From: Opitutales bacterium
GTDB lineage: Bacteria > Verrucomicrobiota > Verrucomicrobiia > Opitutales > Seribacteraceae
Assembly (NCBI GenBank): GCA_028042835.1
Contig: JAOFOL010000006.1
Span: 1 to 64,000 of the forward strand
Direction: 5' to 3'
DNA: 64,000 nt
In this document: positions 13,067 through 35,783 of the stretch, piece after piece
Layout: each line of letters starts with the position of its first letter
How positions within the stretch are numbered: position 1 is the first letter of the stretch
The notes under the pieces: model-generated
Told to the model about the DNA's origin: nothing
The model's database searches: none
Seen by the model: the letters and a program-made list of their open reading frames with translations, nothing else
Position numbers and translations under genes: made by a program

Positions 13067-13141
13067 GGCGCGGTAGCCAAGTGGTAAGGCCGGGGACTGC
13101 AAATCCTCTATTCGCCGGTTCGATTCCGGCCCGCGCCTCCA
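13067..13141 (+). tRNA. tRNA-Cys (anticodon GCA)
   Basis: Full cloverleaf: acceptor GGCGCGG (13067-13073) pairs with CCGCGCC (13131-13137), followed by discriminator T and encoded CCA. D arm GCC/GGC, anticodon stem GGGGA/TCCTC with one G-T pair around loop CTGCAAA (anticodon GCA at 13099-13101), and T arm GCCGG-TTCGATT-CCGGC are all present. The gene is intact, and its 3' part from 13094 is repeated at 35733, marking it as the integration site of the element. Confidence 0.97.
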
Positions 13142-13144
13142 TTC
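13094..13144 (+). repeat. attL, left attachment repeat within tRNA-Cys
   Basis: 51 bp running from the anticodon stem through the CCA end and three bases beyond. It matches 35733-35783 at 50 of 51 positions; the one difference is C at 13113 against T at 35752, in the variable loop. The insertion lies downstream, so the tRNA remains complete. Confidence 0.93.
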
Positions 13145-13434
13145 TTTACTTATTCTGGATCAGTATTTTACGGGATTTATCTCTTTGCTGGTCTCACAAC
13201 CCCAAAAATATCCTTGGCCATTTCTTGGCCACTTTTGGGTTCTTTCCTAGCTGTTTTTAGTCCTCGAGTCCTGGATCTGTGGGGTTCGCTTGAAAAAGTC
13301 AAAACCATGGAATCCTTAGACTATTGAGATAATTCAAAATGCAAGGGGGGGGAGGGGGGCTAAAGCAAAGGTCAGTCGGTCTGAATTACAAACTCATTTA
13401 GCCACAGAAAAAATGTGACAAAGGAGCTTGCTCA
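13145..13434. other. Gene-free left end of the element
   Basis: 290 bp between attL and the first element gene. Apart from the arm-type repeats it holds a G-rich tract (eight G, A, six G) at 13345-13359 and no convincing gene. An open frame across the tRNA and this region has no support as a gene. Confidence 0.6.
13211..13232 (+). promoter_or_regulatory. Left arm-type repeats (putative integrase sites)
   Basis: Two tandem copies of a 10-bp motif, TCCTTGGCCA (13211-13220) and TTCTTGGCCA (13222-13231), spaced 11 bp apart, about one helical turn. The same doublet in the same orientation occurs at the right end (35593-35613), so both ends carry it just inside the attachment repeats. This is the arrangement of arm-type binding sites of lambda-type integrases; binding itself is inferred. 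Confidence 0.6.
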
Positions 13435-13678: not shown

Positions 13679-14800
13679 ATGGCGATTCCACAGAAATTTA
13701 TCTACCAAAACGGTAGAAATAAAGGGAGAATAATTCAAAATTTGGTACAAATAAAAGGAGATCACAATTTTGAACGAAGAGATGCACACCCTAAGATAAA
13801 AGGCTTATTCTTTCTACGTTACGAGCAAAGTCGTACCATACAACGATGGGTTGAAGAAGAGAGGCTCAAGCCTTTGCACCCAACTAATCACATAATAACA
13901 AAAGCTCTACCAAAAGATATACCAATCCACAACTCAGGAAAGGCACTTGGCAGAATTAATCAAACTCTATTACAGACAGGCAAAGAACAAGGATTTTACA
14001 ACATAGGGGATCTTCACCCGATATATAAAAATTGTTTTTATCTCAGGTGGAACGGAAGAGTGAGAGCTAAAAACAGTGAAATGTGGGGATCTTCGGATCA
14101 ATTAAATAAAATAAAGTCAAGAGCTCGGAAACGGCATGTAAAGAGATGGAATGTTGATAAAGGCCGACCGACTATGGCCGAAAAATCGTATCAGACGGGC
14201 TCTTCAATAAAATTTAAACGAGGCGATCAACATCCCTCAAGGAAACTGGTGTTTAAAAGTTATAAAAAAGATAAGAAACAAAACAAAGTATATGAAATTT
14301 GGGTGACAGCCGGAGATTTACATGCGTGGAAACAGAAAAGAAAAGATTTTCCATCGAGACAGGCGAGACCATCAACACCTAGAGAAAGAAAACAAAATAG
14401 AGAGCGGGCTAAAAAAAAGAGAGACAACGACCCGCAGTACAGATTAGCAAGCGTCTTGAGAGTATTAGTCAGAACTTCTTTATCTGTACGAAAGGCTTCA
14501 AAAGCTGAAAGAACAAAAGAACTTTTGGGTTCTTCCATTGAGCAATTTAAGGTGCACCTAGAGTCTCAATTTACCGAAGGAATGTCTTGGAATAACATGG
14601 GGAGAGGAGGTTGGCATATTGATCACATCATTCCGTGTGCATTCTTTGACCTGACCAAACCAAGTCATCAAAAGGTATGTTTTAACTGGCAAAATCTTCA
14701 GCCGTTATGGGAAAAAGATAATATTACTAAAGGTGATAAATTTCCGCTTTCTGTATTGCTTGTACTTTTTAAATACGGGTACAACCGAATTACCGTGTAA
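13679..14800 (+). CDS. HNH endonuclease with three N-terminal repeat modules
   Basis: Protein of 373 aa ending in a phage-type HNH nuclease domain at about residues 300-355: WHIDHIIP supplies the first His-Asp pair, and FNWQNLQPLW followed by KDNITKGDK the N and last-H region (the final ligand is replaced by K/D-type residues as in many phage HNH proteins). Upstream are three copies of a module whose core reads D-x-H-P-x4-(L/C)-x-F, at residues 35-45, 111-120 and 183-192, each followed by an aromatic/basic strand. Residues 225-262 are a highly basic, probably disordered or DNA-contacting linker. The neighbour to the right, 9 bp away, is a second HNH protein. Homing, island maintenance or defence are all possible roles. 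Confidence 0.8.
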   Translation: MAIPQKFIYQNGRNKGRIIQNLVQIKGDHNFERRDAHPKIKGLFFLRYEQSRTIQRWVEEERLKPLHPTNHIITKALPKDIPIHNSGKALGRINQTLLQTGKEQGFYNIGDLHPIYKNCFYLRWNGRVRAKNSEMWGSSDQLNKIKSRARKRHVKRWNVDKGRPTMAEKSYQTGSSIKFKRGDQHPSRKLVFKSYKKDKKQNKVYEIWVTAGDLHAWKQKRKDFPSRQARPSTPRERKQNRERAKKKRDNDPQYRLASVLRVLVRTSLSVRKASKAERTKELLGSSIEQFKVHLESQFTEGMSWNNMGRGGWHIDHIIPCAFFDLTKPSHQKVCFNWQNLQPLWEKDNITKGDKFPLSVLLVLFKYGYNRITV

Positions 14801-14809
14801 GTCCAAGTA

Positions 14810-16405
14810 ATGAATATAACAACTAAAGAGAAACGTCAGGAATGGAACTCATTTTTCAAAGGAGATATTGATCCAAATAACATTCCTAGCAAAGAACTTA
14901 TAATCTCAAAGCTTGTTGAGAAGAGTCACATAAATGACAAAAAAAGGGTAAGAAAAGAAATTGAATCAAAAACTGAAGAATTTATCAAAGAGGCTAAGAA
15001 AGCTTGGGGTAATGATGAATTTAGCTACTCAAACACAGTTTTTTATGGAAGAGGAATAATTGTTATACATAAAGATTTTGGACCAGCTTGGCAAAGACCA
15101 GAGGCACATCTCAAAAAGATATTTCCATATGGAAACAAAGCTTTTCCTTTAAAAACAGAAAGAGAGATAGTCAGGCTCAATAAAAATGGTCTTAACACTA
15201 GAGAAATTGCGGAGAAGTTTAAAACCACTGATAGTACAATTTCGAAAGTTTTAAAGATTTATAATCAAAAACCGAAAGGGTCTAAAAAAACAACAGAAGA
15301 AGTTGAATTTGAAATAGTTTCGATGTGGGACAGAGGTGAGGTCATTAGCGATATTAAAAATGAAACAAAATTATCTCATTCAACAATTTATAAAGTCCTA
15401 GATAAACACAAGAGAAACAGGGTGGGTAAAAGAGAGAAGAAAGAGAGGCTTAATAGAAGAAAAATACCAGCTGAGATTGCAAAGGAAATAATCGAAAAAT
15501 ATACATCTGTGGAACAACCGACTATATCTTCTCTAGCACGGGAATATAATTTTTCAGGTGATTTGATTCGAGGTTGCCTTAAAAGAAGTAATATCGAAAT
15601 CCGAAAAAACTGTAAAGTTACAGACGCCGAATTTAAAATAATCGTTGAGCGTTATAAAAATGGTGAATCCTCATACAAGTTATCAGAAGATTTTGGAATA
15701 GCTCCAAGTTCGATAACTACAAGACTTCACAGAAAGAATCATAAAGTAAGAGACTCGCTTGATTACAAAAATACTGTAAACGAAGAAGATATTCCTAAAA
15801 TTATAGATTTATACAGTGTAGCAAAATTAGGTTCTTCAACGATTGCTGATCTACTTGGTTACTGGAAAAAGCAAATACTAGATATTCTTAAAGCAAATGA
15901 TATTGAGTCTGATAGATCACCCACATTTTATAGCAGATATAGCAGCCAATCAGAGAGAAAAATAATTAAAAGTATAAGAGGTGGATTAGAGAAAATATAT
16001 AAAAATAGTAAGGGTGATCATGAGAATATTTCTCTAACCGAAAAGGCTCTTAAATTTGTTGGTTGTTCGCCCAAAGAATTATTAACGCATTTGGAAGAAA
16101 CAAAACCGAAATGTGATAAAGATACCACCTTGAATTTAGATCATATAATTCCAATTTCTGCATTTGGTGAATTTATTGGAAATGAGGAAAAACTGAAAGT
16201 TTCATGCCATTACCAGAATCTTCAATTGCTGACTAAAGAGGATAACGAGGCTAAAAGTGATAGTATGGAGATCGGGCTTGAAATGTTGATGAAAAAAGAA
16301 GTTAAAGATAAAGAAGTTTACTTTATACTTGTGGAAATAGCTGAGAAGGAGATTAGAAATAAACAAAAGATTATCGCTGACATTTTGACAAAATATTCTC
16401 CTTGA
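14810..16405 (+). CDS. HNH endonuclease with tandem helix-turn-helix repeats
   Basis: Protein of 531 aa. The first 120 residues are unrecognised. Between about residues 125 and 365 there are five successive resolvase-type HTH units, the clearest reading IVRLNKNGLNTREIAEKF and IVERYKNGESSYKLSEDFG, each about 45-50 residues. The C-terminal third carries an HNH domain: LNLDHIIPISAFG near 443 and CHYQNLQLLTKEDNEAKSD near 467. It has no Cys-based zinc site. Base composition is strongly A-rich. It probably forms an operon with the preceding HNH gene. Multiple HTH units suggest recognition of a long or repeated DNA site by the nuclease; this is inference. Confidence 0.82.
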   Translation: MNITTKEKRQEWNSFFKGDIDPNNIPSKELIISKLVEKSHINDKKRVRKEIESKTEEFIKEAKKAWGNDEFSYSNTVFYGRGIIVIHKDFGPAWQRPEAHLKKIFPYGNKAFPLKTEREIVRLNKNGLNTREIAEKFKTTDSTISKVLKIYNQKPKGSKKTTEEVEFEIVSMWDRGEVISDIKNETKLSHSTIYKVLDKHKRNRVGKREKKERLNRRKIPAEIAKEIIEKYTSVEQPTISSLAREYNFSGDLIRGCLKRSNIEIRKNCKVTDAEFKIIVERYKNGESSYKLSEDFGIAPSSITTRLHRKNHKVRDSLDYKNTVNEEDIPKIIDLYSVAKLGSSTIADLLGYWKKQILDILKANDIESDRSPTFYSRYSSQSERKIIKSIRGGLEKIYKNSKGDHENISLTEKALKFVGCSPKELLTHLEETKPKCDKDTTLNLDHIIPISAFGEFIGNEEKLKVSCHYQNLQLLTKEDNEAKSDSMEIGLEMLMKKEVKDKEVYFILVEIAEKEIRNKQKIIADILTKYSP

Positions 16406-16719
16406 AGAATACGATTCAGGCTTCGCGCACTCTTAATTATAATCTTTCGCCAAGCCTATTACATAGCTCATGTCGGCAAGCAATTAACTAAAGAACAATC
16501 ATGAAAATGAAAGTCATTAGGCAATGTTATGAAAATTTGGTTTTTTTAATCAATCCATCATATTCTAAAATAATCCATTCTGTTCATTTATGCATAGGTT
16601 AAGAATTCTATAGAGTCCTAAAAAAAGGATTTCATTAATGGGAATCATTCTTCCGGAAAAAAACTGAAACAAAAGAAAAGAGATAAATAAAAGTAATTTA
16701 AAAATTCCTTTTATTTATT
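16406..16719. other. Intergenic stretch between convergent gene groups
   Basis: About 310 bp of AT-rich DNA between the rightward HNH gene and the leftward replication genes. I see no gene, tRNA or clear terminator hairpin here. It could hold an origin; the 21-bp repeat at its right edge is listed separately. Confidence 0.5.
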
Positions 16720-16740
16720 CTGACAAAATGACAAAACCTC
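16720..16740 (+). repeat. 21-bp inverted-repeat copy, left of replication module
   Basis: Sequence CTGACAAAATGACAAAACCTC, itself a tandem of TGACAAAA. An inverted copy with 20 of 21 matches is at 20230-20250. The two copies exactly bracket the four leftward genes (DUF3987 ATPase, primase, excisionase-like HTH, hypothetical). This copy lies 4 bp past the stop of the ATPase gene. Likely a binding site for a regulator or replication initiator. Confidence 0.75.
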
Positions 16741-16744
16741 AACT

Positions 16745-18229
16745 TCACTCCTGAGTCTTTAACCTAAGAATTCTTGAGGGTCTGCCCCCTTTTTTTCCTG
16801 CTTCTGGCTTAATGATTTCAAACCGATCGTCGTAGGTTCCAACCACTTCTTCCACTTCTTCGACGTCATAACCCATCCTCCCTAAGTTTCTAATTGTTTC
16901 CGACATTTTACCTTCTTTTTCGAGCACTGATTCAAGCTTACTAGCATATTCGGCTAAGGATAGAATTCGCTTTGATTTAATTTCATTCATTAATTCCTGT
17001 TGGCAAAACTTAACAATTTCCACGGCCCTACGAGTTTGATCCAAGTTAATTTCAACAGGCATGGAATTCTCGTCTTCTGCAATAGCTAGAATACCAGCAA
17101 CTCGAATTGCAATCTCTCGGGACTTACCAAGCTCATTCCTATATGCACTGAGGTCTCCAAATGTATCGTTTCTTCTTTGATTATGGAATTCTAAGAGGTA
17201 CATCCTCGCATCTCGAGTAAACTTGATCTCATGGGGGCTTGTCAGACTTTTCCTTATGGATAAGATTTGTCGAATCTTACATCCCCATAATTCTTTAAGA
17301 TTTGGATCTATTGCAACTTCATCAATTGTTTCAGGTTCAAGAATCATATGTCCTTTGATATATAAAATTCTCGCGGTTAGTCCCTGAGATGAAGCCTCCT
17401 TATCATATATTAATTTTCCAACTACGGATGGTTGAGCCATCCAAAGGGAAGATAAACAAGGCTCTTGTATTTTAACATTGGCTCTTCCAACTCTTCGAAA
17501 TTCTGTTGGGTCCCCAGAAAAACCCTTAAGAATTAATGTAAAATCATTTCCCTGATTACTATATTTACCTTGTAAGTTAGAAAAAATATCTCCTGCCTCG
17601 GAGCTTGCACTAAAAAGGACCCCTTTTGCTTCTTCGAGTGCTACACCCATTGCTTCTGGCGAAGCGTTGTCTATAAAGAAAGGAACCGGACCCCGGATCG
17701 TTTTTTCATCAAGTGAAATTTTATCAATTTCTTTTTGAATGAATTCCAATGGGTCTTGCCCTAAACTTAAGTTTGGTAGGTCAATCTTTTTACTTGAACC
17801 ATTTAAGACACTTTTCTTATGTGCCTTAAATTGTTCTAACCTTGCTTTAAGCCTGGGTATTTTCTTTTGATACTCATCTTCAATTGCTTTGTCAAAATCA
17901 TGTAACGGTTTCAGGGCATTTCCCATTATTACTCCTTTACCCGATGATGATGTGGCAGAAATTAAGGTGTATAGATTGAGATAACTTCCACCATGTTTTG
18001 ATCCATTAGTTGCCTTGAAACTTTTTCCTACTGCTCCAGAAATTGCAGATAGGCCGCTCATTAAGCACATTGCTGGATCGACATCATTGACCTGGCCAAC
18101 AGCTTCAGAAAACTCTTTGAGGATACCTGTGAAGGCCGAATGCGGAAATTTTATTTCATCAATCTCAGTTACATTTGATTTACCTTTATTCAAGGAATGC
18201 TCATTCATATTGTTTGCTAATTTCGGCAT
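16745..18229 (-). CDS. DUF3987-family ATPase (putative replicative helicase of the element)
   Basis: Protein of about 494 aa of the DUF3987 type found beside primases on mobile elements; a helicase or helicase-loader role in element replication is inferred. A P-loop-like segment ATSSSGKGV lies near residue 78, followed by FSASSEAGDIFSNLQGKYS near 210-230 and a C-terminal region reading KKGGRPSRILRL that looks like a winged-helix end. The start is set by AAAGGAG 8 bp before the ATG at 18229. It overlaps the end of the primase gene by 29 bp, so translation is probably coupled. Confidence 0.8.
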   Translation of the reverse strand: MPKLANNMNEHSLNKGKSNVTEIDEIKFPHSAFTGILKEFSEAVGQVNDVDPAMCLMSGLSAISGAVGKSFKATNGSKHGGSYLNLYTLISATSSSGKGVIMGNALKPLHDFDKAIEDEYQKKIPRLKARLEQFKAHKKSVLNGSSKKIDLPNLSLGQDPLEFIQKEIDKISLDEKTIRGPVPFFIDNASPEAMGVALEEAKGVLFSASSEAGDIFSNLQGKYSNQGNDFTLILKGFSGDPTEFRRVGRANVKIQEPCLSSLWMAQPSVVGKLIYDKEASSQGLTARILYIKGHMILEPETIDEVAIDPNLKELWGCKIRQILSIRKSLTSPHEIKFTRDARMYLLEFHNQRRNDTFGDLSAYRNELGKSREIAIRVAGILAIAEDENSMPVEINLDQTRRAVEIVKFCQQELMNEIKSKRILSLAEYASKLESVLEKEGKMSETIRNLGRMGYDVEEVEEVVGTYDDRFEIIKPEAGKKGGRPSRILRLKTQE

Positions 18230-19232
18230 TTTTATAACTCCTTTCTGAAAGTCCAAGAAGAGGGTTTCGGATTAATGGATCATTATCCCAGTCATCCAAA
18301 TTCGCCCGAAGCAGATCATTTAAATCAGTAATCAGATTCCCATCATTAGACTTTGTTTTGTCAAAATCATAGATGTCCGTATCGACACCCACATACTTCA
18401 GGGAGGAAGACCAATTCTTCGCACCTTTCATACCGGCTTCATCCATATGAGGGAAGACACGGACTCTTTTGCCTTTTAAGTTCCTTGCCTGTTCGCGAGA
18501 AAATTCCTGATAAGCTCCAAACATTGCGATTACTCCAAAGAGATCCTTTTGTTTGGATTGGGTGATTAAGTAATTAGCGGCAAGGAAATCGGGACCTCCT
18601 TCCACTAATAAAACGTATTTGTAAGGACCAATCTCGGTAAGTCCCAAAGGATGCTTTAATTTTCCCAATGTCCTTGTTTTAACCTTATTTCCATCCTTCA
18701 GTCTTACGCGACTTCCCGACAGTAACCTATCTTGCCTAAAAGCACCCCCGATATCCGCTAATGTCCATAATGTATCTGCCTTATTTGATGAAAACCTTAA
18801 ATGCCCTCGATCCTGAGCTAGTTTAATGCCCTGAAACCCAATCCCCCTTAATTCAGCCAATTGATAAAGTTCGTCCTCAGATCCTAGTCGTAAGTACTTA
18901 GAAAAGTTTAGGTCCTTTTCTTGAGTCTTTTTGTCTTTAGGGGAATGTGCTACGGCCGTAAAAGGTAACTTTTCTCCACTTGCCAATTTGATTAGCTCCT
19001 TACAAGCTAAGGACTCAGTTATTCCAAGGACAACAGAAATAAAGACAACAACATCTCCATTTTCTCCAGTTCCGAAGTCTTTAAATCTATTTCCGTTTTC
19101 ATAAACGGAAAAGGATGGACTCCTGTCTTCACGATGTGGCGCCTTGCATGACTTACCAGGCTTCCCAGGAAGGTTCAATAGCTCCCAAGCTGAATAAATA
19201 TTTATAACTCTTTTAGCCTCCTTAATCGTCAT
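18201..19232 (-). CDS. DnaG/phage-type primase with degenerate zinc finger
   Basis: About 343 aa. The N-terminus resembles the CHC2 zinc domain: CKAPHREDRSPSF supplies Cys and His, but the usual second Cys pair is replaced in KDFGTGENGDVVVF, as in many mobile-element primases. A TOPRIM-like half follows: KYVLLVEGGPDFLAA near residue 208 with the catalytic Glu, and RVFPHMDEAGMKGA near 270 supplying the acidic DxD-type site in altered form. The start is chosen by GGAGG 8 bp before the ATG at 19232. It overlaps the HTH gene upstream by 11 bp and the ATPase gene downstream by 29 bp; the three form one translationally linked unit. Confidence 0.82.
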   Translation of the reverse strand: MTIKEAKRVINIYSAWELLNLPGKPGKSCKAPHREDRSPSFSVYENGNRFKDFGTGENGDVVVFISVVLGITESLACKELIKLASGEKLPFTAVAHSPKDKKTQEKDLNFSKYLRLGSEDELYQLAELRGIGFQGIKLAQDRGHLRFSSNKADTLWTLADIGGAFRQDRLLSGSRVRLKDGNKVKTRTLGKLKHPLGLTEIGPYKYVLLVEGGPDFLAANYLITQSKQKDLFGVIAMFGAYQEFSREQARNLKGKRVRVFPHMDEAGMKGAKNWSSSLKYVGVDTDIYDFDKTKSNDGNLITDLNDLLRANLDDWDNDPLIRNPLLGLSERSYKNAEISKQYE

Positions 19233-19431
19233 TCCTAGGCCCTCCAAGCAGTTTATCTACCTCCGCCTTATCATAGCGAATAACCCTACTGTTAATGCGA
19301 ATAGGCGTTAAAACCTTATCGCGGCGTTCCCATCTCTTAACCGTCCCTGGATGTACCCCAGCCATCTTTGCTACCTGCTTACGAGACAGCAACTCAGGAC
19401 GACTTGCGTGTAGATAATAATTCTTAATCAT
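19222..19431 (-). CDS. Excisionase-like MerR-type HTH protein
   Basis: A 69-aa DNA-binding protein. The segment LLSRKQVAKMAGVHPGTVKRWERRD at residues 14-38 (quoted here only to show the HTH pattern SRKQVAKMAGVHPGTVKRW) is a winged-helix/MerR-type HTH of the AlpA/Xis family, followed by a wing reading RINSRVIRYDKAEVDKLL. Proteins of this kind bend DNA for excision or switch on island genes. It heads the primase-ATPase unit, with an 11-bp overlap into the primase gene, so it may also regulate replication of the element. Confidence 0.82.
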   Translation of the reverse strand: MIKNYYLHASRPELLSRKQVAKMAGVHPGTVKRWERRDKVLTPIRINSRVIRYDKAEVDKLLGGPRNDD

Positions 19432-19601
19432 GTTTATAATTTTGCCGACTGACTGCCAAAAATCTATCGGAAGAAAAAGGTCTTTTTTTTCCGATTGACA
19501 GGGAACGCTAGTCTAAACCTGTGATTGAGAGATTTTAGCCCTTTAAAAAAATAAAAAGATATTTTTTCTAATTTACCTTAGATAATTTTTGTAAAATATT
19601 G
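19432..19601. other. Short intergenic region upstream of the HTH gene
   Basis: 170 bp, AT-rich, between the hypothetical gene at 19602 and the HTH gene, both leftward. It probably contains the promoter of the HTH-primase-ATPase unit, but no clear -35/-10 pair can be named by eye. Confidence 0.4.
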
Positions 19602-20192
19602 TTAACCAGAAAGATGAAGTGGATAAAACTTTCCGTAATATTTTTCCTTCAATCGCAACCAATCTTTTCTTTTTTTGTCTAATTTTGAACGAATCTTAAA
19701 CACGGAATCATCGATTGGGAGTTCTTTTCCGAAGAGCTCATAGATCGGTCTCACATCGTCAGCAATTCTTTTATCAATATTTTCTTTTCTGGACAGATCA
19801 GATTCCAAAAAGTGGTATGTGAGTTGATCATTCTCATAAGTAACATTCAATAAGACCTGAATTAATTTCCATGTAATTTCTGGGAACCTATTTCTTGTTT
19901 CAATGAAAATTTCAAGGGCAGTTGGTTCATCTTCATAAAAGCGATAGTTATGGGCATTTTCTACATTAAGGTCTTTTTCAGGAATGATGGTAAATAGAAT
20001 AGATACGATGTTTCTATAATTAAAATCTTTGATTTCGAACTCATGCTCAGAAGCTATTTCGTCAAACTCTTCCATTCTTAAAAGCAGGTGATAGTAGTAA
20101 AACTCGAAAATGCCAAAGTCGGGTAAAGTTTTTTTCCTCCCTTTTTTCCTTCTAAAAGATTTTGGAGTTTTATTAGAATCTTTCCCTGGCAT
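19602..20192 (-). CDS. Hypothetical protein (196 aa)
   Basis: Unrecognised soluble protein. The first 25 residues are very basic (KSFRRKKGRKK), the rest is rich in aromatic and acidic residues with predicted helices, and there is no signal peptide or membrane segment. It starts 37 bp from the right copy of the 21-bp inverted repeat, so its promoter region probably contains that site. GAGAGAAG about 13 bp before the ATG is a weak ribosome-binding site. It is the first leftward gene of the replication side and is divergent from the Lon/STAND operon. A regulator or replication accessory role is possible but not shown. Confidence 0.65.
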   Translation of the reverse strand: MPGKDSNKTPKSFRRKKGRKKTLPDFGIFEFYYYHLLLRMEEFDEIASEHEFEIKDFNYRNIVSILFTIIPEKDLNVENAHNYRFYEDEPTALEIFIETRNRFPEITWKLIQVLLNVTYENDQLTYHFLESDLSRKENIDKRIADDVRPIYELFGKELPIDDSVFKIRSKLDKKRKDWLRLKEKYYGKFYPLHLSG

Positions 20193-20229
20193 ACATGACC
20201 AACTTCTCTCAATGTAGTTCTCGTTTCAA

Positions 20230-20250
20230 GAGGTTTTGTCGTTTTGTCAG
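20230..20250 (-). repeat. 21-bp inverted-repeat copy, right of replication module
   Basis: GAGGTTTTGTCGTTTTGTCAG, the reverse complement of 16720-16740 with one mismatch. It lies in the divergent region between the leftward hypothetical gene (37 bp from its start) and the rightward four-gene operon (75 bp from its start), so a protein bound here could control both. Confidence 0.75.
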
Positions 20251-20324
20251 TAAAAAATCAGGGAGGTATAAGTAATTGAATAATACATCTTGAGAACATA
20301 ATAAGTTTTATGTAAATTTCGCGA

Positions 20325-20810
20325 GTGATTGATTTAGACCTAAACGCGTTACTTTTTTCAACTGATGTCAGTATGGGAACTCTGTGGCGTGTTAAAGAAA
20401 GCGTTTGGAAAGACCAATTGCCTTCTTTCTATGTAGCCAAAGAAGACACAAAAATGCATCCTGGGCTTTCGATCATGCGGGCAAAAAGTGCAAGTTCAGA
20501 AATAACAGTGCCTTTGCTCCATGGGACTTCAGGAAAAAAGGGCCCTGTGGTAGTAAAGGGCATTTCAAATGAGCAAAAGTACGACGAAAACCATAAGTGC
20601 TCCTTTGGGCAAATTATTTGTCCTGCTTTTATTCCAAAAAAGAAAATGGAGGAGTTTGATCGGTCTACTACGGTTTTCGACCCAGGATTGGGGCCTAATT
20701 GGGATGCTGAATTTGATGTAATTCCAAACAGACATAAGCCACGTGTCTCCATTGACGAGAAAGAGAAGTTAGATTTGTTTTTGAAAAGGAAGATGGCAGA
20801 GGATGAGTAA
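20325..20810 (+). CDS. MazF/PemK-like barrel protein, first gene of the Lon/STAND operon
   Basis: 161 aa. The segment order GTLWRVKES (18-26), HPGLSIMR (45-52), VPLLHGTSG (62-70), GPVVVKGI (73-80) recalls the strand pattern of the PemK/MazF SH3-like barrel, but the match is weak and the RNase residues cannot be assigned with confidence. The C-terminus is charged and probably flexible. GTG at 20325 is the longest start; an ATG at residue 17 is an alternative. Its end overlaps the next gene by 8 bp. Family proteins are endoribonuclease toxins; here a regulatory or effector role within the operon is equally possible. Confidence 0.6.
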   Translation: MIDLDLNALLFSTDVSMGTLWRVKESVWKDQLPSFYVAKEDTKMHPGLSIMRAKSASSEITVPLLHGTSGKKGPVVVKGISNEQKYDENHKCSFGQIICPAFIPKKKMEEFDRSTTVFDPGLGPNWDAEFDVIPNRHKPRVSIDEKEKLDLFLKRKMAEDE

Positions 20811-21645
20811 GCTGACGAAAGAGTCTGACTGGGCAGAGTGGAAGCAAGAGTGTGCATTTGAACTTTGTAACGAAAAAGCTCAGGAGAGATTTGGCAAGTT
20901 CTGCTCGATGAGACTGTTTAACTCATCAAAAGGTTGTTCACCCAAAACTTTTTTAGAGATTTCAGAGCAATTAGGAATAGGAGGAAATGTTGATCTTAAA
21001 ATTAAGAACCAGAGAGTTTTAGCTTACTTAGATGCTCAATTTATCATTGATAAACTCGATAATAAGCAGAAGGGGAAAAAGAAGAAAATTCTTAAAGAAT
21101 GGATGATTAAAGAGAGTCCAACTCTTTCGCATATCGAGGCTACAGCTACGCATTTTATTTGGGGCTTGAGAAAGAAATTCCTTAAAGACGAAAGAGGAGC
21201 AGAGTTTTCTAATTTCTCCAAAGGAAGAAAAGTAGGAAATGAAGGACTTACTCTAGATGATTTGGCTGAGTCCAACGAACCAAACCCTGCTGATGAAATT
21301 AAATATAAAGAACTGGAAGAGGAACTTTATGCAAAGGCGAATGTGTTTTACCTTGAGCTGTCTAAAGATCGAAAGATTGCGATTTTAGCAAGATCACTAG
21401 GAATTTCCCTTAAGAATTCAATTGTGTTAGCAGCTTCTGAAAAAGGGCATTCCGTTCTTTATGAAAACCTCAAAAATGACCTGGCAGCGTTTGCTGGGAT
21501 TATTCAAAAATGTGAGGATCTTAAAAATGAGCCAACGGCCAGGCTCGAGATAGCGAGTCTACATATTTTAGGCGGAATTTCTCTAGAGTGGGCGAAAAAA
21601 ACGGAAAATGGCTGTATTGAAATCCTTAAGGTAAGTGATGACTAA
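20803..21645 (+). CDS. Sigma-70-like protein of the Lon/STAND operon
   Basis: 280 aa. A helical stretch at residues 108-135 (LSHIEATATHFIWGLRKKFL) resembles sigma region 2. It is followed by an acidic linker with LDDLAESNEPNPADE (151-165), typical between sigma regions, and by a region 4-like HTH at 187-227 (KIAILARSLGISL, then EKGHSVLYENL). The first 100 residues and last 50 are unrecognised. If it does bind RNA polymerase it could switch on the operon or redirect transcription; a divergent DNA-binding adaptor is the alternative. It overlaps the gene before by 8 bp and the gene after by several bases. Confidence 0.6.
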   Translation: MSKLTKESDWAEWKQECAFELCNEKAQERFGKFCSMRLFNSSKGCSPKTFLEISEQLGIGGNVDLKIKNQRVLAYLDAQFIIDKLDNKQKGKKKKILKEWMIKESPTLSHIEATATHFIWGLRKKFLKDERGAEFSNFSKGRKVGNEGLTLDDLAESNEPNPADEIKYKELEEELYAKANVFYLELSKDRKIAILARSLGISLKNSIVLAASEKGHSVLYENLKNDLAAFAGIIQKCEDLKNEPTARLEIASLHILGGISLEWAKKTENGCIEILKVSDD

Positions 21646-22654
21646 AAAAGAGAAAGAAATTTTCTTCAAGAAGTTAGCCTTGTGGCTGGACGATTGGGAG
21701 ATTGATCAACAGTTTCAAACTGAGAAAGAGGATGTTTTGGATGATGGGAAAAAACATGAAATTCCATATGAAGAGCCATTTTACCGAAATGTAAAACCGG
21801 GAGATGTATTACTTCTATCCAATAATTTAACGCCCAAAGAACATGGGTTGAATGGCCCCCTTTTTATAGCAGTATTGAGACTATGGGAAAAAGAAGAGGA
21901 TGAGGAGTATTTTCTTTGGGCACCTTATTCAAGTTTATCTCAACCGGCTACAGACAAGGAGCTTAAATTTGATCATACTGATGATAGGTTAGCCGTGCTT
22001 TCCCTTTGGAATGCTCATACTTCGACTAGAGACCAGCTGTCTGAATCTTGGTTTGCGGGTGAATTGAAAGATCAGGACAGGAAAGATGCATTAGGAGTAT
22101 TTTGGTACTCATTGGGGATGAAAGACCTTACGCAGAAGCTCGAGGATAAGGTTGGACCCAAGTTGTACCATGATAAAGATCCGCGCCACGAATATTTCGC
22201 GAGAGAGCTTAAAAGAACTCTGATCATTCGGGAGTTTTCATTTCAAGGTTTGCATTCTGAAACTGAAAAAGACAGTGATGCTGACGACAAAATTATCTCT
22301 TTTTCGGTATGGCAGGAAGAAGAACGTAAAGAGAGGCCAAAATTAGTGGCTGCCGATAGAAAAAGACAAAATAGATATCTTGAATTTTACAGTGAAGAGC
22401 TCCCGCTAAAGCTAATTTTTCGTTCAATCCCAAGGCATGACCAAATTATTTTTGAACTGCTTACCGATGATGAAAAGCTCAAAGATCAAATTGATGAATT
22501 CCTTATAAAGATAGAAGGGCATGAAAATCAGGAGCTTTCTTTTGAAAACGGTCAGTGCATACAGGATGCCTCTATGGACTTTCTTTCTATTTCACTGCAA
22601 TCACCTGAAGGAAAAATTTTAAAACTTAAAAGGTCAGATCCGGTAGATGAATGA
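21638..22654 (+). CDS. Hypothetical protein, third gene of the Lon/STAND operon
   Basis: 338 aa, not recognised. The N-terminal half has a strand-rich part (VKPGDVLLLSN near 54, GPLFIAVLRLWE near 73, YFLWAPYSSLSQPAT near 92) that could be a small barrel. The C-terminal part (ELSFENGQCIQDAS, then FLSISLQSPEGKIL) reads like a beta-sandwich. There is no signal peptide or membrane segment, and the protein is very acidic. ATG at 21638 is preferred over GTG at 21635. It overlaps the sigma-like gene, and its TGA overlaps the ATG of the STAND gene. Strict coupling suggests a fixed-ratio partner of the big protein. Confidence 0.65.
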   Translation: MTKKEKEIFFKKLALWLDDWEIDQQFQTEKEDVLDDGKKHEIPYEEPFYRNVKPGDVLLLSNNLTPKEHGLNGPLFIAVLRLWEKEEDEEYFLWAPYSSLSQPATDKELKFDHTDDRLAVLSLWNAHTSTRDQLSESWFAGELKDQDRKDALGVFWYSLGMKDLTQKLEDKVGPKLYHDKDPRHEYFARELKRTLIIREFSFQGLHSETEKDSDADDKIISFSVWQEEERKERPKLVAADRKRQNRYLEFYSEELPLKLIFRSIPRHDQIIFELLTDDEKLKDQIDEFLIKIEGHENQELSFENGQCIQDASMDFLSISLQSPEGKILKLKRSDPVDE

Positions 22655-25600
22655 TTTCATTAAGTGAGCAGAAATCTTTTTTAGATAGAGAGACTTTTGC
22701 ACCCGGGATTTTCTCATCTGAAACAATCCTTAAGATAGCTTTACCCAATGGTCGGCTCAGTAAAGAGGGTGCAATTACTGAGCTAATAGGGGAACTTCTT
22801 TTTCGGCAATGGTTGTTTAAAGACCAACTACCTGCAGAGCTCAAGGAGCTTATTGAACATCCGGAACTTTCAGAAGTTCGTCAGGCTCTTGACCAAGATG
22901 ATCTCGATTCTTTGGATAAGTTCAAGAAATCGAAAGACTATCTTGATGACCGAATTGAAGCTTTTGAGCGTGCGGATGGGATTATTGCACTCGTTGACTC
23001 TGATAATGAAGAAGCACTGCCGATTCCCTTTACTCTGATAAGGAATCGTCGGAGGTCTGGAGTTTGGGATAACTCAGAATTTGAGCCTCAGGAGATTGGA
23101 GTTTGGAGTGAATATCAACAGGAGATTGATGAGCTCTTGGGAACGGATATAAATTCGGTGAGATTGGAATTACCTCTTGGTCCTTATGCCGGCATGATTG
23201 AGGGGAGAAGCCTGATGCTTCCTTTGGCACTGGCAATCGCCCGAAGAAAAGACCCCACACTGCCCAAACCGATTGAAGTCTTGGCAAGTGGTGTGGTTTC
23301 AGGAGGGCGTATTGAGCAGGTCGCATATCTTAAGGAGAAGATTCTTTTGGCTAAACGAATGGGTGCCAGGATCGTGGCAGTAATGGATGAACCACCGGAT
23401 CATTCCTTCGTTCCTGAGAAGAGTGAAAAACTTACAACTTTTATGGAAAGATGGCAGACGAGATTTGGGAAGGTATTGCCTCCCATGTTGGAGTCTCATT
23501 TTGATGTATGGAGAGACCATATTTCCAATTTTAAAGGGAGGGAAAAGCTGGTTGGTCAAATTTTAAGTAGACTCAAAGATAAACATAAAGGTGGCCATGT
23601 AGCATTAGTAAGCCCGGAGGCGATGGGTAAGTCGGCATTACTCAGTTATGTGTCAAAGAGATTAAGTGATGATGCGAGAAATTCTGGCAAATATGAAGGA
23701 GCCAGGGCAATTTGCCCATGGTTGCCCGGTTGCCTGCTGCACATGGGTAAGTTTGGATCGGATCCGCACGCAGTAACTGAAAGTCTGTTGACTCAGGCCA
23801 ATGCAATGATCTCTGCTCCTGTCTCCATTCCGGAGATGCCATATAATAAAGATCCACAAAAAAATCAAAGGGAGGACGATTCTTCAGAGTTAACTCTCGA
23901 TTATCGCGAAGTATTTAGGGCTCACAGAGAAGCAATGGGCAGGGCTCTGAGGCAACTCGTCGAAAAAAGAGGTACAGTATACCTACTTATTGACGCATTG
24001 GATGAAATGACTGTGGATAGAGGGTTTCTAAGCGTATTTCCGGATTTATTTCCTGACGGTGTCCGTGTTTTGATTACAGGCAGAAATTGTGTCCAGGTTG
24101 ACAAATTTTTGGATCGGAGGGACGGGTTTAAAAAAATTGAAACGCAAAAACTGGAACGATTAGAAGTACCTGATATCAGCTGCGTGAGTGATGAAAATAA
24201 GAAAGGTAAAAGATTTAACGATCTTTTGTTCAAGAAAACTGGAGGCTGGACTTATGCTATTCATAAAGCAGGTAAAGCAGTAAGAGAAAACGAGGGTGAA
24301 TTTTCTGATGATTTAATTCAAAGTAGGGAAGAAACTCTTGATCGAATGGCAAAATGTTGGACAGGAGAAGTATTGGAAGATGCACTTGAGTTTCTTGTGA
24401 TAGAGGAATTCTTCCATTGCCTCAAAGACACTATCGAAATTAAACGATTCTTCTATTCAGATATTGCTTCTGGCGATTACCAAAATTCTTTTTATCCCAA
24501 TGTTGGCCCAAGATTCAGCGATTTATTTTCCTATCTCAAATCCAGGGGGCACAAGATTAATTTCAGGGGACTGCTCAAAGTACTTTCCCCCATTAGTGAG
24601 CAATTAGTATTTAAAACTTTTTATCCAAAAAAAAGATTTTCACTCAAAAAATTCCTAAATAGTTCGTTTATTGTTAAGGAAAAAACAGAAACCATCTCCT
24701 TTGCTCTTAGAATCTTCCCTGAATATTGTTTGGATAAGTTTTTTGGTATCGATGTAGAAGATAGTTTAGAGAAAATATGTGACTGGATGATCGAAGCCCA
24801 GAACCCTGGCCTTCTATGGAGGTTGGACTTTCTAATACATCGTTCAGAGTATTTCCATCCGACAATGTCGATTTTGCAAATTAACAATACTTGGTGGCAA
24901 ATTGGAGATAATTGTTGGTCTCAAATTATAAGAAAATGGTCTTCTGATTTAATTACAAAAATTGGTGTCGGGCAAGGTGATCACCCACCTTCACTTTGGC
25001 GAGACGCTGCTCTAGAAGTTGCGAGGCGAGGCGAGAATGGTGGTGAACAATTTGATGTGGCATGCGCTTATGCAGGATTCCATGAACATGCTTTTCTTTA
25101 TCGACTTGAATACAAGCCTTCGGAAGCAATAAGTATGCTTGATGGGATTCTGAAATCAGGTTCTAAACTAGCTTCTACAGCCGCCTTTTACATAGCTTGT
25201 ATTGAGCTAAATATAGATCCTACTGACCCTCGGGTCTTTCGAGATGCTCGGTATCTTAGACCCGGGAGAAATCGAGAGGGAAAAGATGCATTCAAAGCCT
25301 TGGCTTACTTGGAAGAATCCATCGAGATTGGGAACAAAGTAGCCGAATTATGTCTCGGAGCGATGTACTTGAATAATGATTTACCCTTTTATAATGCAAC
25401 AAAGGGAATCGAAATTTTAAAAACACTAACTAATTTAAAGGCTCCGAAAAAAGACTCGGAATTAAAAGAAGTTCAATCATGTGCAAATCAAGTTTTAGGA
25501 TGGCATTACATTGATAACGATTATGATTGCGGTCTTTTACTTTTTAAAAAAGCAATCACATGTAGTAACAATCACCAGCTAGGTATAGACTTGGTTGATC

Positions 25601-26748
25601 AATTTTCTGAAAGCTTTTATTTAGAGGGTGACAAGGATCATGAGAAATTTTTTACCGATATCCTTATTTACTCTCTTGATGCAATAAGTTGGAGTGCAAA
25701 AAAATCAGAGGTCTTAGATCGCTTAACCAAAAGACTTGTAGAAGCAGCTTTCGTGATTCCAAAAATGAGAAATCGAAAATATAGTCGTAATTCAACTTGG
25801 GGACTTTTTGGAGGATGGAATCTTCAGGAAGAAGGGGTTTTTAAAGGTGCTAATTCTTGGATATTGGTACAGGACTATGTTGTCAAATTTTGCATTAAAG
25901 GCGAATTGAGACCTAGTGGAGCTTCTGTTAAGGAAAGACTGGCACTTAAAAATGAGGAATTATTAGAAGTAGGTTTGAAAGGAATAAAAAGTAAATTTAG
26001 TTTTGCATCGGGTGAAGATTTAGAAAAAATTTTATCAATAAAATTCTTACCTTTATTAAATGTTTCTGAAACTATTCGCATTAGAGAGGAGGGAAAATCT
26101 CAAAGAGATTTTTCACATGTAGGGGAGTATACAAAATCCGCCTTAAAAACTTGGTATCAAAGAAATCAGATCAAAGGTAATAAAAAAGTTACCAAGCATA
26201 CCCGTAAAGTTCTAGAAGCTTTCGATGGTAAAGAGAAGCGACCCGGCAAAAAAATTATTGATAAAATCCACAAGCTGCAAAGCCTTTACAAAAAACAAAA
26301 GCTTTCAAAGGAGAATCAGGTTAATAGATTGTTTTATGTAAATGGTCCTGTTGCTATTTTAGAACTAATTGATTGGCTAGAATGGGAAGATTCTCAAAGT
26401 GCTCAAAATTGGCAAAAAGCCGAAAAAATCACTGAAAATCTGGCCGCAAAAGGGTTTAAGCTCAAGGATGGGTTGAGAATACCTTGGTTTGATCAGGAAA
26501 ACTGCAAGAATCCTCTTAAAACAGTCTTCGAAGATAAATTAATTGTGCGTGTAATAAAAGTGCCTGACTACAACTGGCTAGCAAGAGAGGCCCATCCTTT
26601 GTATGATTTATCTGTGGGGATGTTAGTCCGGCACGATATTTATGAAGACCCTGATGGACTTAGCCCAAAGCAGCGATTTGATATGGCGAGAAAGGGCGGA
26701 GTTAAAGTTCCCGAGTGGATGAATGATATCATAATCGAAAAAAAATAA
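22651..26748 (+). CDS. Lon-like peptidase domain fused to STAND NTPase and helical repeats
   Basis: 1365 aa. Residues 1-165 are unrecognised. Residues 170-250 resemble the Lon (S16) peptidase fold: Ser187 in EGRSLMLPLALA and Lys228 in AYLKEKILLAKRMGA match the Ser-Lys dyad, 41 residues apart (43 in E. coli Lon). A STAND/NACHT-type NTPase follows: Walker A SPEAMGKS at 321-328, Walker B LLIDALDE at 445-452, LITGR at 474-478. Beyond 550 the protein is helical, with Sel1/TPR-like units around 820-970, fitting a sensor region. No membrane segment is seen. It is the last of four overlapping genes. By analogy with STAND defence proteins, sensing of an invader by the repeats would trigger NTP-driven oligomerisation and proteolysis; this is inference. 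Confidence 0.78.
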   Translation: MISLSEQKSFLDRETFAPGIFSSETILKIALPNGRLSKEGAITELIGELLFRQWLFKDQLPAELKELIEHPELSEVRQALDQDDLDSLDKFKKSKDYLDDRIEAFERADGIIALVDSDNEEALPIPFTLIRNRRRSGVWDNSEFEPQEIGVWSEYQQEIDELLGTDINSVRLELPLGPYAGMIEGRSLMLPLALAIARRKDPTLPKPIEVLASGVVSGGRIEQVAYLKEKILLAKRMGARIVAVMDEPPDHSFVPEKSEKLTTFMERWQTRFGKVLPPMLESHFDVWRDHISNFKGREKLVGQILSRLKDKHKGGHVALVSPEAMGKSALLSYVSKRLSDDARNSGKYEGARAICPWLPGCLLHMGKFGSDPHAVTESLLTQANAMISAPVSIPEMPYNKDPQKNQREDDSSELTLDYREVFRAHREAMGRALRQLVEKRGTVYLLIDALDEMTVDRGFLSVFPDLFPDGVRVLITGRNCVQVDKFLDRRDGFKKIETQKLERLEVPDISCVSDENKKGKRFNDLLFKKTGGWTYAIHKAGKAVRENEGEFSDDLIQSREETLDRMAKCWTGEVLEDALEFLVIEEFFHCLKDTIEIKRFFYSDIASGDYQNSFYPNVGPRFSDLFSYLKSRGHKINFRGLLKVLSPISEQLVFKTFYPKKRFSLKKFLNSSFIVKEKTETISFALRIFPEYCLDKFFGIDVEDSLEKICDWMIEAQNPGLLWRLDFLIHRSEYFHPTMSILQINNTWWQIGDNCWSQIIRKWSSDLITKIGVGQGDHPPSLWRDAALEVARRGENGGEQFDVACAYAGFHEHAFLYRLEYKPSEAISMLDGILKSGSKLASTAAFYIACIELNIDPTDPRVFRDARYLRPGRNREGKDAFKALAYLEESIEIGNKVAELCLGAMYLNNDLPFYNATKGIEILKTLTNLKAPKKDSELKEVQSCANQVLGWHYIDNDYDCGLLLFKKAITCSNNHQLGIDLVDQFSESFYLEGDKDHEKFFTDILIYSLDAISWSAKKSEVLDRLTKRLVEAAFVIPKMRNRKYSRNSTWGLFGGWNLQEEGVFKGANSWILVQDYVVKFCIKGELRPSGASVKERLALKNEELLEVGLKGIKSKFSFASGEDLEKILSIKFLPLLNVSETIRIREEGKSQRDFSHVGEYTKSALKTWYQRNQIKGNKKVTKHTRKVLEAFDGKEKRPGKKIIDKIHKLQSLYKKQKLSKENQVNRLFYVNGPVAILELIDWLEWEDSQSAQNWQKAEKITENLAAKGFKLKDGLRIPWFDQENCKNPLKTVFEDKLIVRVIKVPDYNWLAREAHPLYDLSVGMLVRHDIYEDPDGLSPKQRFDMARKGGVKVPEWMNDIIIEKK

Positions 26749-34243: not shown

Positions 34244-35572
34244 TTAATACGCTTTTTCTTTGAGAAGGGAAGATGTCTCAATTTTTGATAGCTTTCGGTT
34301 TTCAACATAGATTTGGCTGGTTATTCGTATGTCACTGTGTCTTGCAAAACTGCTTGCTGCATGGATACCATGTTGATCTGCAATTATTGATGTGGCTTCC
34401 TGGCGAAGTGTGTGAATAGGTTTCTGGGATTTCACTCCATGTTTCCTCAACCATTTACAAAGTTGTTTGAACAAGTAGCCGCATCGATAGGAACCTGCCT
34501 TGCGAGAATCAGAGTTCCTCCTGGATATCGAAACAACAAATTTTCCCTTACTTTTTCGTTTTAGCTTTTTCAACTGATTTACAGTGAACTCATCGATGGC
34601 AATCAGATTTTCCGATTCCGCTGACTTAAGCTCATAATCAGTGGATGCTTGGACATAGATGAGCTTTTGTTTGAAGTCGATGTGGTCCCATTGTAACCAA
34701 TCGATTTCCTTTCTTCTTAACCCGCTCACTGCAGCTATGAGGAAGACTTTGTACAATTCCGGTTTGCTTGGAAGCAGTTCGTTTTGAGCTAGTTTAAAAA
34801 GTTTTCCAAGATCCATTCCCGCTCGCTGGGCATCGTATTTTCTGATCCTAACCTTCTCCTGGCTCACATCCTCAAATGGATCATGAGGAATGATGAGCCT
34901 CCCTTTAAGAGTTCTTTTACCACTGCGATCGTAAGCATGCTTGCTACCACCAATTTCAGCCGCAACAAAAACTATATTATTAGCTGAAAACAAACTTTTG
35001 GAATTTCGAATGATTGAATTCACAGTTTGAACCCGAGCTCTTTTTTCTTCCTCGTTTCGTGCTTTTGAGATGTATTTCTTTTTCCAAGTCATTATTTTGG
35101 CAGGGGTTAGCTCAGAGAGCATAACCTTGTTAACCTTTTTTCTGAGGGCTAAATTCCCTTTACCCACTCTTGTTTCTTCGTGCTTGAGGCCACATGCTTC
35201 GGCTATGAGTCGCCGGAATTTCTTCTTGTATGAGTATAGTGTATCAGGTTTGAGAGTGGTTTTATCCCTGATTTCATTTAAGAAAATCTCAACGGTCGGA
35301 GATTCCACTTTCTGCTCACCCTTTGGCTTGTACTTTTCAAGGGTCGGCTCCCAACCATTAAGCTCTCGAAACAAAAAAATCTCTCTAGCCTTTCTCGCTG
35401 CCTCATCCTTGTTGCCAGTTCCCAGACCGAAAGTGTGTCTTTGGAAATACTCTGAAAATCTGACTGAGTAATCACTTTGTTTGAACTTCTTTCCTTTGTA
35501 GGTGTAAGTGTTGAAAAACACCTTGGTTTTCCAGTAGCGGTAATCGCTTTTCGAATATCTGATTCCAGGCAT
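34244..35572 (-). CDS. int: Tyrosine recombinase/integrase of the element
   Basis: 442 aa from the ATG at 35572; a TTG at 35629 would extend it through the arm-type repeats. The catalytic set is visible: Arg286 (SGLRRKE), His387 and Arg390 (HTLRQE), His412 (ARHSD), Tyr422 (SQIYVENR). A SAM-like core-binding domain lies around residues 80-190, and the N-terminal 70 residues probably bind arm sites. The gene is at the right end, about 160 bp from attR, and is transcribed toward the element interior. No Shine-Dalgarno sequence is seen. The repeats overlapping its promoter suggest that integrase represses its own expression. Confidence 0.95.
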   Translation of the reverse strand: MPGIRYSKSDYRYWKTKVFFNTYTYKGKKFKQSDYSVRFSEYFQRHTFGLGTGNKDEAARKAREIFLFRELNGWEPTLEKYKPKGEQKVESPTVEIFLNEIRDKTTLKPDTLYSYKKKFRRLIAEACGLKHEETRVGKGNLALRKKVNKVMLSELTPAKIMTWKKKYISKARNEEEKRARVQTVNSIIRNSKSLFSANNIVFVAAEIGGSKHAYDRSGKRTLKGRLIIPHDPFEDVSQEKVRIRKYDAQRAGMDLGKLFKLAQNELLPSKPELYKVFLIAAVSGLRRKEIDWLQWDHIDFKQKLIYVQASTDYELKSAESENLIAIDEFTVNQLKKLKRKSKGKFVVSISRRNSDSRKAGSYRCGYLFKQLCKWLRKHGVKSQKPIHTLRQEATSIIADQHGIHAASSFARHSDIRITSQIYVENRKLSKIETSSLLKEKAY

Positions 35573-35579
35573 GTTAAAA

Positions 35580-35614
35580 TGGCCAAGAATTATTCTTGGC
35601 CAATTCTTGGCCAC
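35580..35614 (+). promoter_or_regulatory. Right arm-type repeats (putative integrase sites / int operator)
   Basis: Two direct copies of TTCTTGGCCA (35593-35602 and 35604-35613) spaced 11 bp, plus an inverted copy TGGCCAAGAA (35580-35589). They match the doublet at 13211-13231 and lie directly upstream of the int ATG, so they may serve both as arm sites and as an operator. Confidence 0.6.
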
Positions 35615-35732
35615 TTTTTGTGTTCTCAAGTGTTTTCATCTGAATATTTAAATGAAGCTAAAGCTCAGTAAATATCAAGATAAATCTTTGATCTTCAGCG
35701 CATTTCAGAACATCTGGGGACAAATAAATAGA

Positions 35733-35783
35733 GGACTGCAAATCCTCTATTTGCCGGTTCGATTCCGGCCCGCGCCTCCATTC
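35733..35783 (+). repeat. attR, right attachment repeat (tRNA-Cys 3' fragment)
   Basis: 51-bp copy of the 3' part of tRNA-Cys, differing at one base from attL. It has no 5' half and cannot form a tRNA. It marks the right end of the element and, after excision, the junction restored to chromosome. Confidence 0.93.

Follow-up and report, generated by a model that had tools for sequence, protein, structure and literature searches.

Inverted tandem repeats at the edges of a DUF3987 helicase-primase module in an integrated element of an Opitutales bacterium

Why does one short repeat occur, in opposite orientations, at both edges of a single group of replication genes? The question is raised by a 64,000-nucleotide stretch of an Opitutales bacterium genome (contig JAOFOL010000006.1, positions 1 to 64,000; here called the window), in which an integrated element of about 22.6 kb, inserted in tRNA-Cys, carries a module of exactly four same-strand genes bracketed by the repeats. 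In order on the minus strand, these genes encode a 196-aa protein, a 69-aa MerR/HTH_17-like protein, a DnaG-type primase, and an ATPase of the DUF3987 family. We consider it probable that the repeats are opposed replication iteron arrays bound by the DUF3987 protein, making up an origin like those of Staphylococcus aureus pathogenicity islands (SaPIs) and phage-inducible chromosomal islands (PICIs), with the second array acting as an origin partner or as an operator. DUF3987 genes are present in many integrative elements and phages, yet the family still has a placeholder name.

The repeat pair in the window

The sequence CTGACAAAATGACAAAACCTC is located at positions 16720-16740 of the plus strand, and CTGACAAAACGACAAAACCTC is located at 20230-20250 of the minus strand. 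An earlier note on this DNA described them as 21-bp inverted repeats with one mismatch, and the 20/21 match was confirmed; extended to 27 nt (16714-16740 / 20230-20256), it is 24/27 (89%). Each copy is indeed a tandem, with two units of 8 to 9 bp, and the pair encloses the ATPase, primase, helix-turn-helix (HTH), and hypothetical genes as exactly as had been claimed (4 nt and 38 nt from the outer gene ends). Among the inverted repeats listed for the 17 kb scanned (13 to 30 kb of the window), this pair ranked first. When the two intergenic gaps that contain the copies (16406-16744 and 20193-20324) were compared with each other, the top inverted match scored 18, whereas the maximum in 20,000 shuffles was 17, and the expectation for a copy with up to three mismatches is 0.01 per window. 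These values agree with the earlier judgement that a chance match is unlikely. The motif is poly-A-rich, as it would be if two AT-rich spacers merely resembled each other by chance, but with none of the shuffles reaching the observed score and with the architecture recurring at other DUF3987 genes, this explanation can practically be dismissed. The occurrence of the repeats at both module edges is less remarkable than their sequence match, because the element has just 10 intergenic gaps, with a total of about 1.6 kb.

The gap that contains the left copy is convergent, and the right copy occupies a divergent promoter gap. Next to the left copy, the region 16660-16719 is 85% A+T, which places it among the most AT-rich stretches of the element, and it contains an imperfect palindrome (Table 1). 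A weak half-match, TGACATTTTGACAAAA, was found in direct orientation at 16378-16393, on the other side of the AT-rich stretch. DNA folding at the left site was no better than that of shuffles (z -0.86), and the GC skew tracked gene direction, with no origin signal in it.

A coherent module exactly enclosed by two inverted repeats could also be a transposon-like or swappable cassette, the repeats being its terminal inverted repeats and the four genes having arrived as a unit. However, no transposase is encoded among the enclosed genes, the outer flanks (TTTATT / TAAAAAAT) have no clear target duplication by eye, and each copy is itself a tandem of a short unit. The scatter of motif copies over the chromosome that the earlier note had named as evidence against its own reading was not seen, as there were no further copies at ≤2 mismatches in the genome bin (2.1 Mb; 63% complete); in 373 genomes of the order, the 21-mer pattern gave single control-level matches only and no pair. 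Related modules vary in repeat sequence, in unit number, and even in having a compact layout, and we regard a cassette as highly improbable. A trace of module swapping, which had also been proposed, is unsupported for the same reason, since the repeats differ from element to element and have no other copies in the genome.

Arrays at distant DUF3987 genes

Close relatives of the window's DUF3987 protein were not found in IMG/VR and GTDB contigs. We therefore surveyed distant DUF3987 modules (25 to 30% identity) from the same order, phylum, and class. The earlier note had proposed a search of related elements for repeats conserved at these positions; the distant elements turned out to have their own, element-specific repeats at the same place. 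Tandem repeats are located directly past the DUF3987 gene, and an inverted partner array is located nearby or at the front edge of the operon, which speaks for the iteron (origin) or operator reading among those that the earlier note had offered. On reading of each locus, many were found to have tandem 7- to 10-bp units within 200 bp past the DUF3987 stop codon. When the 250 bp past the stop codon were compared with the 5 kb upstream, long-range inverted repeats in a layout like that of the window, each with its own sequence, were identified in loci L087, L039/L085, L086, L097, and L033 (Table 1). Locus L030, from the same genus as the window, has TGCCAATAG arrays in direct orientation. In the compact layout, seen in L034, L035, L037, L107, and L111, the two arrays point toward each other and both lie in the first 0.5 kb or so past the 3' end of the DUF3987 gene.

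As decoys, we used the remaining genes of these loci that encode at least 200 aa. Inverted match scores of ≥13 were obtained for 14/37 DUF3987 genes, compared with 10/254 other genes. A stricter test required a tandem cluster past the stop codon and an inverted tandem cluster elsewhere, scored by total mismatch. At a total mismatch of ≤1, it was passed by 8/36 DUF3987 genes, 3/228 other genes, and 0/180 shuffles, and two of the three positive decoys (L102 and L093) neighbor the DUF3987 gene in their own modules; at ≤2, the corresponding values were 15/36, 11/228, and 6/180 (p=1.6e-8). Held-out tests were specified before new loci were fetched. The inverted tandem-array architecture replicates in them, being present at 6 of 10 DUF3987 genes but only 2 of 62 other genes (p=3.4e-5), and in the held-out loci L119, L126, and L127 both arrays lie past the DUF3987 gene, in the compact layout.

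Beyond the phylum, TGACAAAA-type units flank an AT-rich stretch directly past the DUF3987 gene in Streptococcus phage Javan191 and phage NatCom_43819. In a blind scan of IMG/VR with the window motif, seven contigs matched, three of them with more than one motif copy; in one of these three, phage contig L071, a dense TGACAAAAC cluster is accompanied by a gene for a DUF3987 protein (E 1.2e-15). No part of profile A1 was sufficiently conserved to be used in scanning viral sequences, and none of the plasmid records matched the DUF3987 query.

A candidate origin and its predicted initiator

The small HTH protein, which the earlier note had considered as a binder of the repeats, is not favored here, since the constant neighbor of the arrays is the DUF3987 helicase. 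The AlphaFold2 model of the latter has a mean predicted local distance difference test score (pLDDT) of 83.8, and its residues 33-414 match the MCM AAA+ core (Z 18.9; root mean square deviation, 3.5). The sequence profile also matches MCM weakly (E 0.005), and the predicted C-terminal part has the element order of a winged helix. We predict that the protein is an MCM-like helicase of the AAA+ class and carries a winged helix at its C terminus; this winged helix would be the likeliest reader of the iterons. The family was earlier described only as a predicted helicase (PMC5862659). No array was found with the short DUF3987 proteins of L091, L092, L096, and L098 (393 to 394 aa), in which the match stops before the C-terminal domain; the absence in these four is suggestive only.

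According to the mechanism that we favor, the two short opposed arrays would serve the replication of the excised element. The C-terminal winged helix of the DUF3987 protein would bind the TGACAAAA units, and the helicase would load at the array by the 3' end of its own gene, which adjoins the AT-rich palindrome. It would then open the DNA and pass single strands to the adjacent DnaG-type primase, and replication of the excised circle would start. A second binding site would be provided by the array at the front edge, which could be the partner half of the origin, comparable to ori and crr of satellite phage P4, two separate repeat sites located several kilobases apart. Alternatively or additionally, it could be an operator by which the initiator restrains its own operon. 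Such a double role may be suspected because the upstream array of relatives often overlaps or abuts the start codon of the first operon gene (L030, L087, L089, and L039).

The same overlap would be expected if the repeats were operators only, bound by a transcription regulator (the 69-aa HTH protein, the 196-aa protein, or an unknown protein) at the divergent promoter and having an antisense or terminator function in the convergent gap, with no part in replication. The right copy, ahead of the first start codon within the promoter gap, also fits this explanation. However, the left copy is past a stop codon, an unusual location for an operator, and the site that is constant among relatives is at the DUF3987 gene's 3' end, where many have both arrays, away from operon starts. 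We consider a purely regulatory role unlikely. No relative of the 196-aa protein was found among the other modules sampled.

Still less probable, and in our view very unlikely, is that the repeats are accessory sites of excision or integration, used by the integrase as arm sites or by an AlpA-like excisionase. The element does encode an integrase and a small HTH_17/MerR-like protein, but the distances from the repeats to the att sites are 3.6 and 15 kb, and the arrays of relatives stay beside the helicase gene. The CTTGGCCA repeats near both element ends (13213-13236 and 35577-35615) are better candidates and may be the arm sites of the integrase.

Iteron origins beside self-loading helicases are of a known kind. 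In the AAA+ helicases SaPI Rep and Cch2 of the staphylococcal cassette chromosome mec (SCCmec), a C-terminal domain binds iterons that directly follow the helicase gene (PMC7581432), and the origin of PICIs directly follows rep and has two sets of iterons around AT-rich DNA (PMC6092414). The window resembles these systems in having a gene for an AAA+ helicase, presumably hexameric, next to a primase gene, short putative iterons right behind the helicase gene (the array begins 4 nt beyond the DUF3987 stop codon), and an AT-rich stretch by the array; the compact DUF3987 loci have two iteron sets with AT-rich DNA between them. A C-terminal DNA-binding domain on the helicase may be a further likeness; in DUF3987 it is predicted, and its PDB matches are weak. 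The published helicases, however, belong to DUF927 (SaPIbov1 Rep and Cch) or D5_N/Primase_Cterm (SaPI5 Rep and Cch2), and neither DUF927 nor D5_N was among the Pfam matches of the window helicase, which is a DUF3987 protein. The second iteron set of the window also differs in its location, at the operon front, 3.5 kb away.

As in the bipartite origin of P4, a single type of putative iteron recurs in the window at two distant positions, which bracket the replication genes. The P4 alpha protein binds origin repeats via a winged helix (PMC4234260). In contrast to the window, with its separate primase and helicase genes and an MCM-like core, alpha is a single polypeptide that includes a Toprim primase. 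The archaeal plasmid pRN1 has essential sites flanking its replication operon: 64 bp on the upstream side, including the promoter, and 166 bp on the downstream side, including a putative origin (PMC4234260). Its sites on both operon sides and the winged helix at the C terminus of its replication protein (PMC4234260) have counterparts in the window, where the winged helix is a prediction, but in pRN1 the site lacks iterons and consists of a long stem-loop, and the proteins are a prim/pol and a superfamily 3 (SF3) helicase. The phage-inducible chromosomal minimalist islands (PICMIs) of Vibrionaceae encode an integrase, an AlpA-type regulator, and a primase recognized by DUF3987/DUF5906 models (PMC10803314). 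The window element likewise has an integrase, an AlpA-type regulator, and DUF3987. However, PICMIs integrate beside fis and carry a Fis regulator, whereas the window element is in tRNA-Cys and no Fis match was obtained among the window proteins scanned.

Several observations weigh against the proposed iteron origin. Two units per array are few for an origin, and the partner array is 3.5 kb distant, compared with ≤0.5 kb in many relatives. Some DUF3987 loci show no arrays, and among the DUF3987 loci with the highest inverted match scores, L036 has a tRNA remnant and L104 has a dispersed palindrome, neither of which is an iteron. The PDB matches of the DUF3987 C-terminal part include winged-helix proteins, among them TFE-alpha and MarR-like regulators, with weak E-values (best, 0.19). 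No close relative was found with which the window's own sites could be compared. Finally, a sequence consensus speaks for the iteron reading in the first set but not in the held-out one. Past the DUF3987 genes of the first set, an unbiased hexamer scan ranked GACAAA as the best of about 2,080 hexamers (19/41 versus 39/311; p=1.3e-6), followed by TGACAA and CTGACA, which together spell CTGACAAA, the motif of the window itself; in the held-out set, GACAAA was not replicated (3/10 versus 8/62; p=0.17). Given the held-out results, it is the architecture that replicates, while the CTGACAAA consensus does not hold in every lineage.

A broader proposal, to which we give somewhat less than an even chance, is that DUF3987 proteins constitute a third, undescribed family of self-loading MCM-like initiators and that their origins are inverted arrays of iterons by the helicase gene's 3' end. 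In a split-origin subtype that would include the window, the partner array would be at the far end of the operon, and the initiator would loop the module and couple origin control to operon expression. Neither the connection with DUF3987 nor the split layout appears to have been described in the literature searched, in which no paper contains both "DUF3987" and "iteron." If the arrays are origins, the origin of any DUF3987 element could be located from its sequence, a small plasmid would suffice for testing the initiator-site pair, and looping between the origin and the operator could be tested directly in the split layout.

The integrated element and additional loci

The coordinates of the window features and the positions of the distant arrays are listed in Table 1. 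The element integrase was not found in ten genus-mates, a result of little weight because the search had no positive control.

Table 1. Features of the window and tandem arrays downstream of distant DUF3987 genes
Feature	Position	Strand	Remark
Putative downstream iteron pair (TGACAAAA TGACAAAA CCTC)	16720..16740	+	Begins 4 nt beyond DUF3987 stop
Putative upstream iteron pair (TGACAAAAC GACAAAAC CTC)	20230..20250	-	Inverted versus downstream pair; 38 nt ahead of 196-aa gene ATG
AT-rich imperfect palindrome, 36 bp	16683..16718		Abuts downstream pair; possible terminator or DNA unwinding element
ATPase of DUF3987 family, predicted replicative helicase (MCM-like, AAA+)	16745..18256	-	Pfam E 8e-56; PHROG DNA helicase
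DnaG-type primase	18201..19247	-	Zinc ribbon; weak Toprim
69-aa MerR/HTH_17-like protein (excisionase/AlpA-like)	19222..19431	-	Family matches
196-aa protein without family	19602..20192	-	First gene of bracketed module
tRNA-Cys	13067..13141	+	attL 13094-13144
attR, copy of tRNA-Cys 3' half (50/51)	35733..35783	+	Duplication
Tyrosine integrase of element	34244..35629	-	Phage_integrase PF00589 E 2.6e-11
L087 array, AATGCCAAAAGACAAAAGCGCCAAAAGTGCCAAAAGCCC, 39 bp	Begins at DUF3987 stop codon		Four TGCCAAAA-like units
L039/L085 and L086 arrays	+58/59 from DUF3987 stop		TGTGACA units
L097 array, CTGACAAAACTGACAGAACC	+133 from DUF3987 stop		
L033 array, GTTTTGCAGGTTTCGCAGG	+17 from DUF3987 stop		

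At the attL end, the element encodes two HNH/endonuclease VII-like proteins (13679-16405, plus strand), the second of which has several HTH repeats. On the other side of the module, a four-gene operon (20325-26748, plus strand) encodes a STAND-type NTPase of 1365 aa along with three unknown proteins and resembles defence cargo. Beside the integrase, a 1741-aa chain (28936-34161, minus strand) fuses RecQ/DpdF-like and UvrD/GajB-like helicase parts and is possibly a defence gene.

The pattern matches L077-L084, from Treponema, Saprospiraceae, and other genomes, were rejected, having no DUF3987 near the site; L083, a weak tblastn match that at first looked promising, is an ordinary promoter region. 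In genome G027, a contig-end DUF3987 remnant (L029 7205-8097, G027:C45; 30 aa, 73% identity) is located ~0.9 kb from the same tRNA-Cys. TGACAA repeats are located right past this tRNA-Cys and may belong to the element, although this flank resembles the attR flank of the window. The palindrome of L104 (G386:C71) is a 50-bp repeat (GGGGAAGGG...CCCTTCCCC) that recurs around the DUF3987 module and resembles a dispersed repetitive extragenic palindromic (REP)-like element. L034 and L035 also have an operator-like four-unit array of 11 bp (AACATACAACT-like) between genes for 423-aa and 254-aa proteins. Immediately past the DUF3987 gene of L031 (11124-11233), a 26-nt inverted repeat encloses a 58-nt loop and is about the size of the stem-loop at the pRN1 origin.

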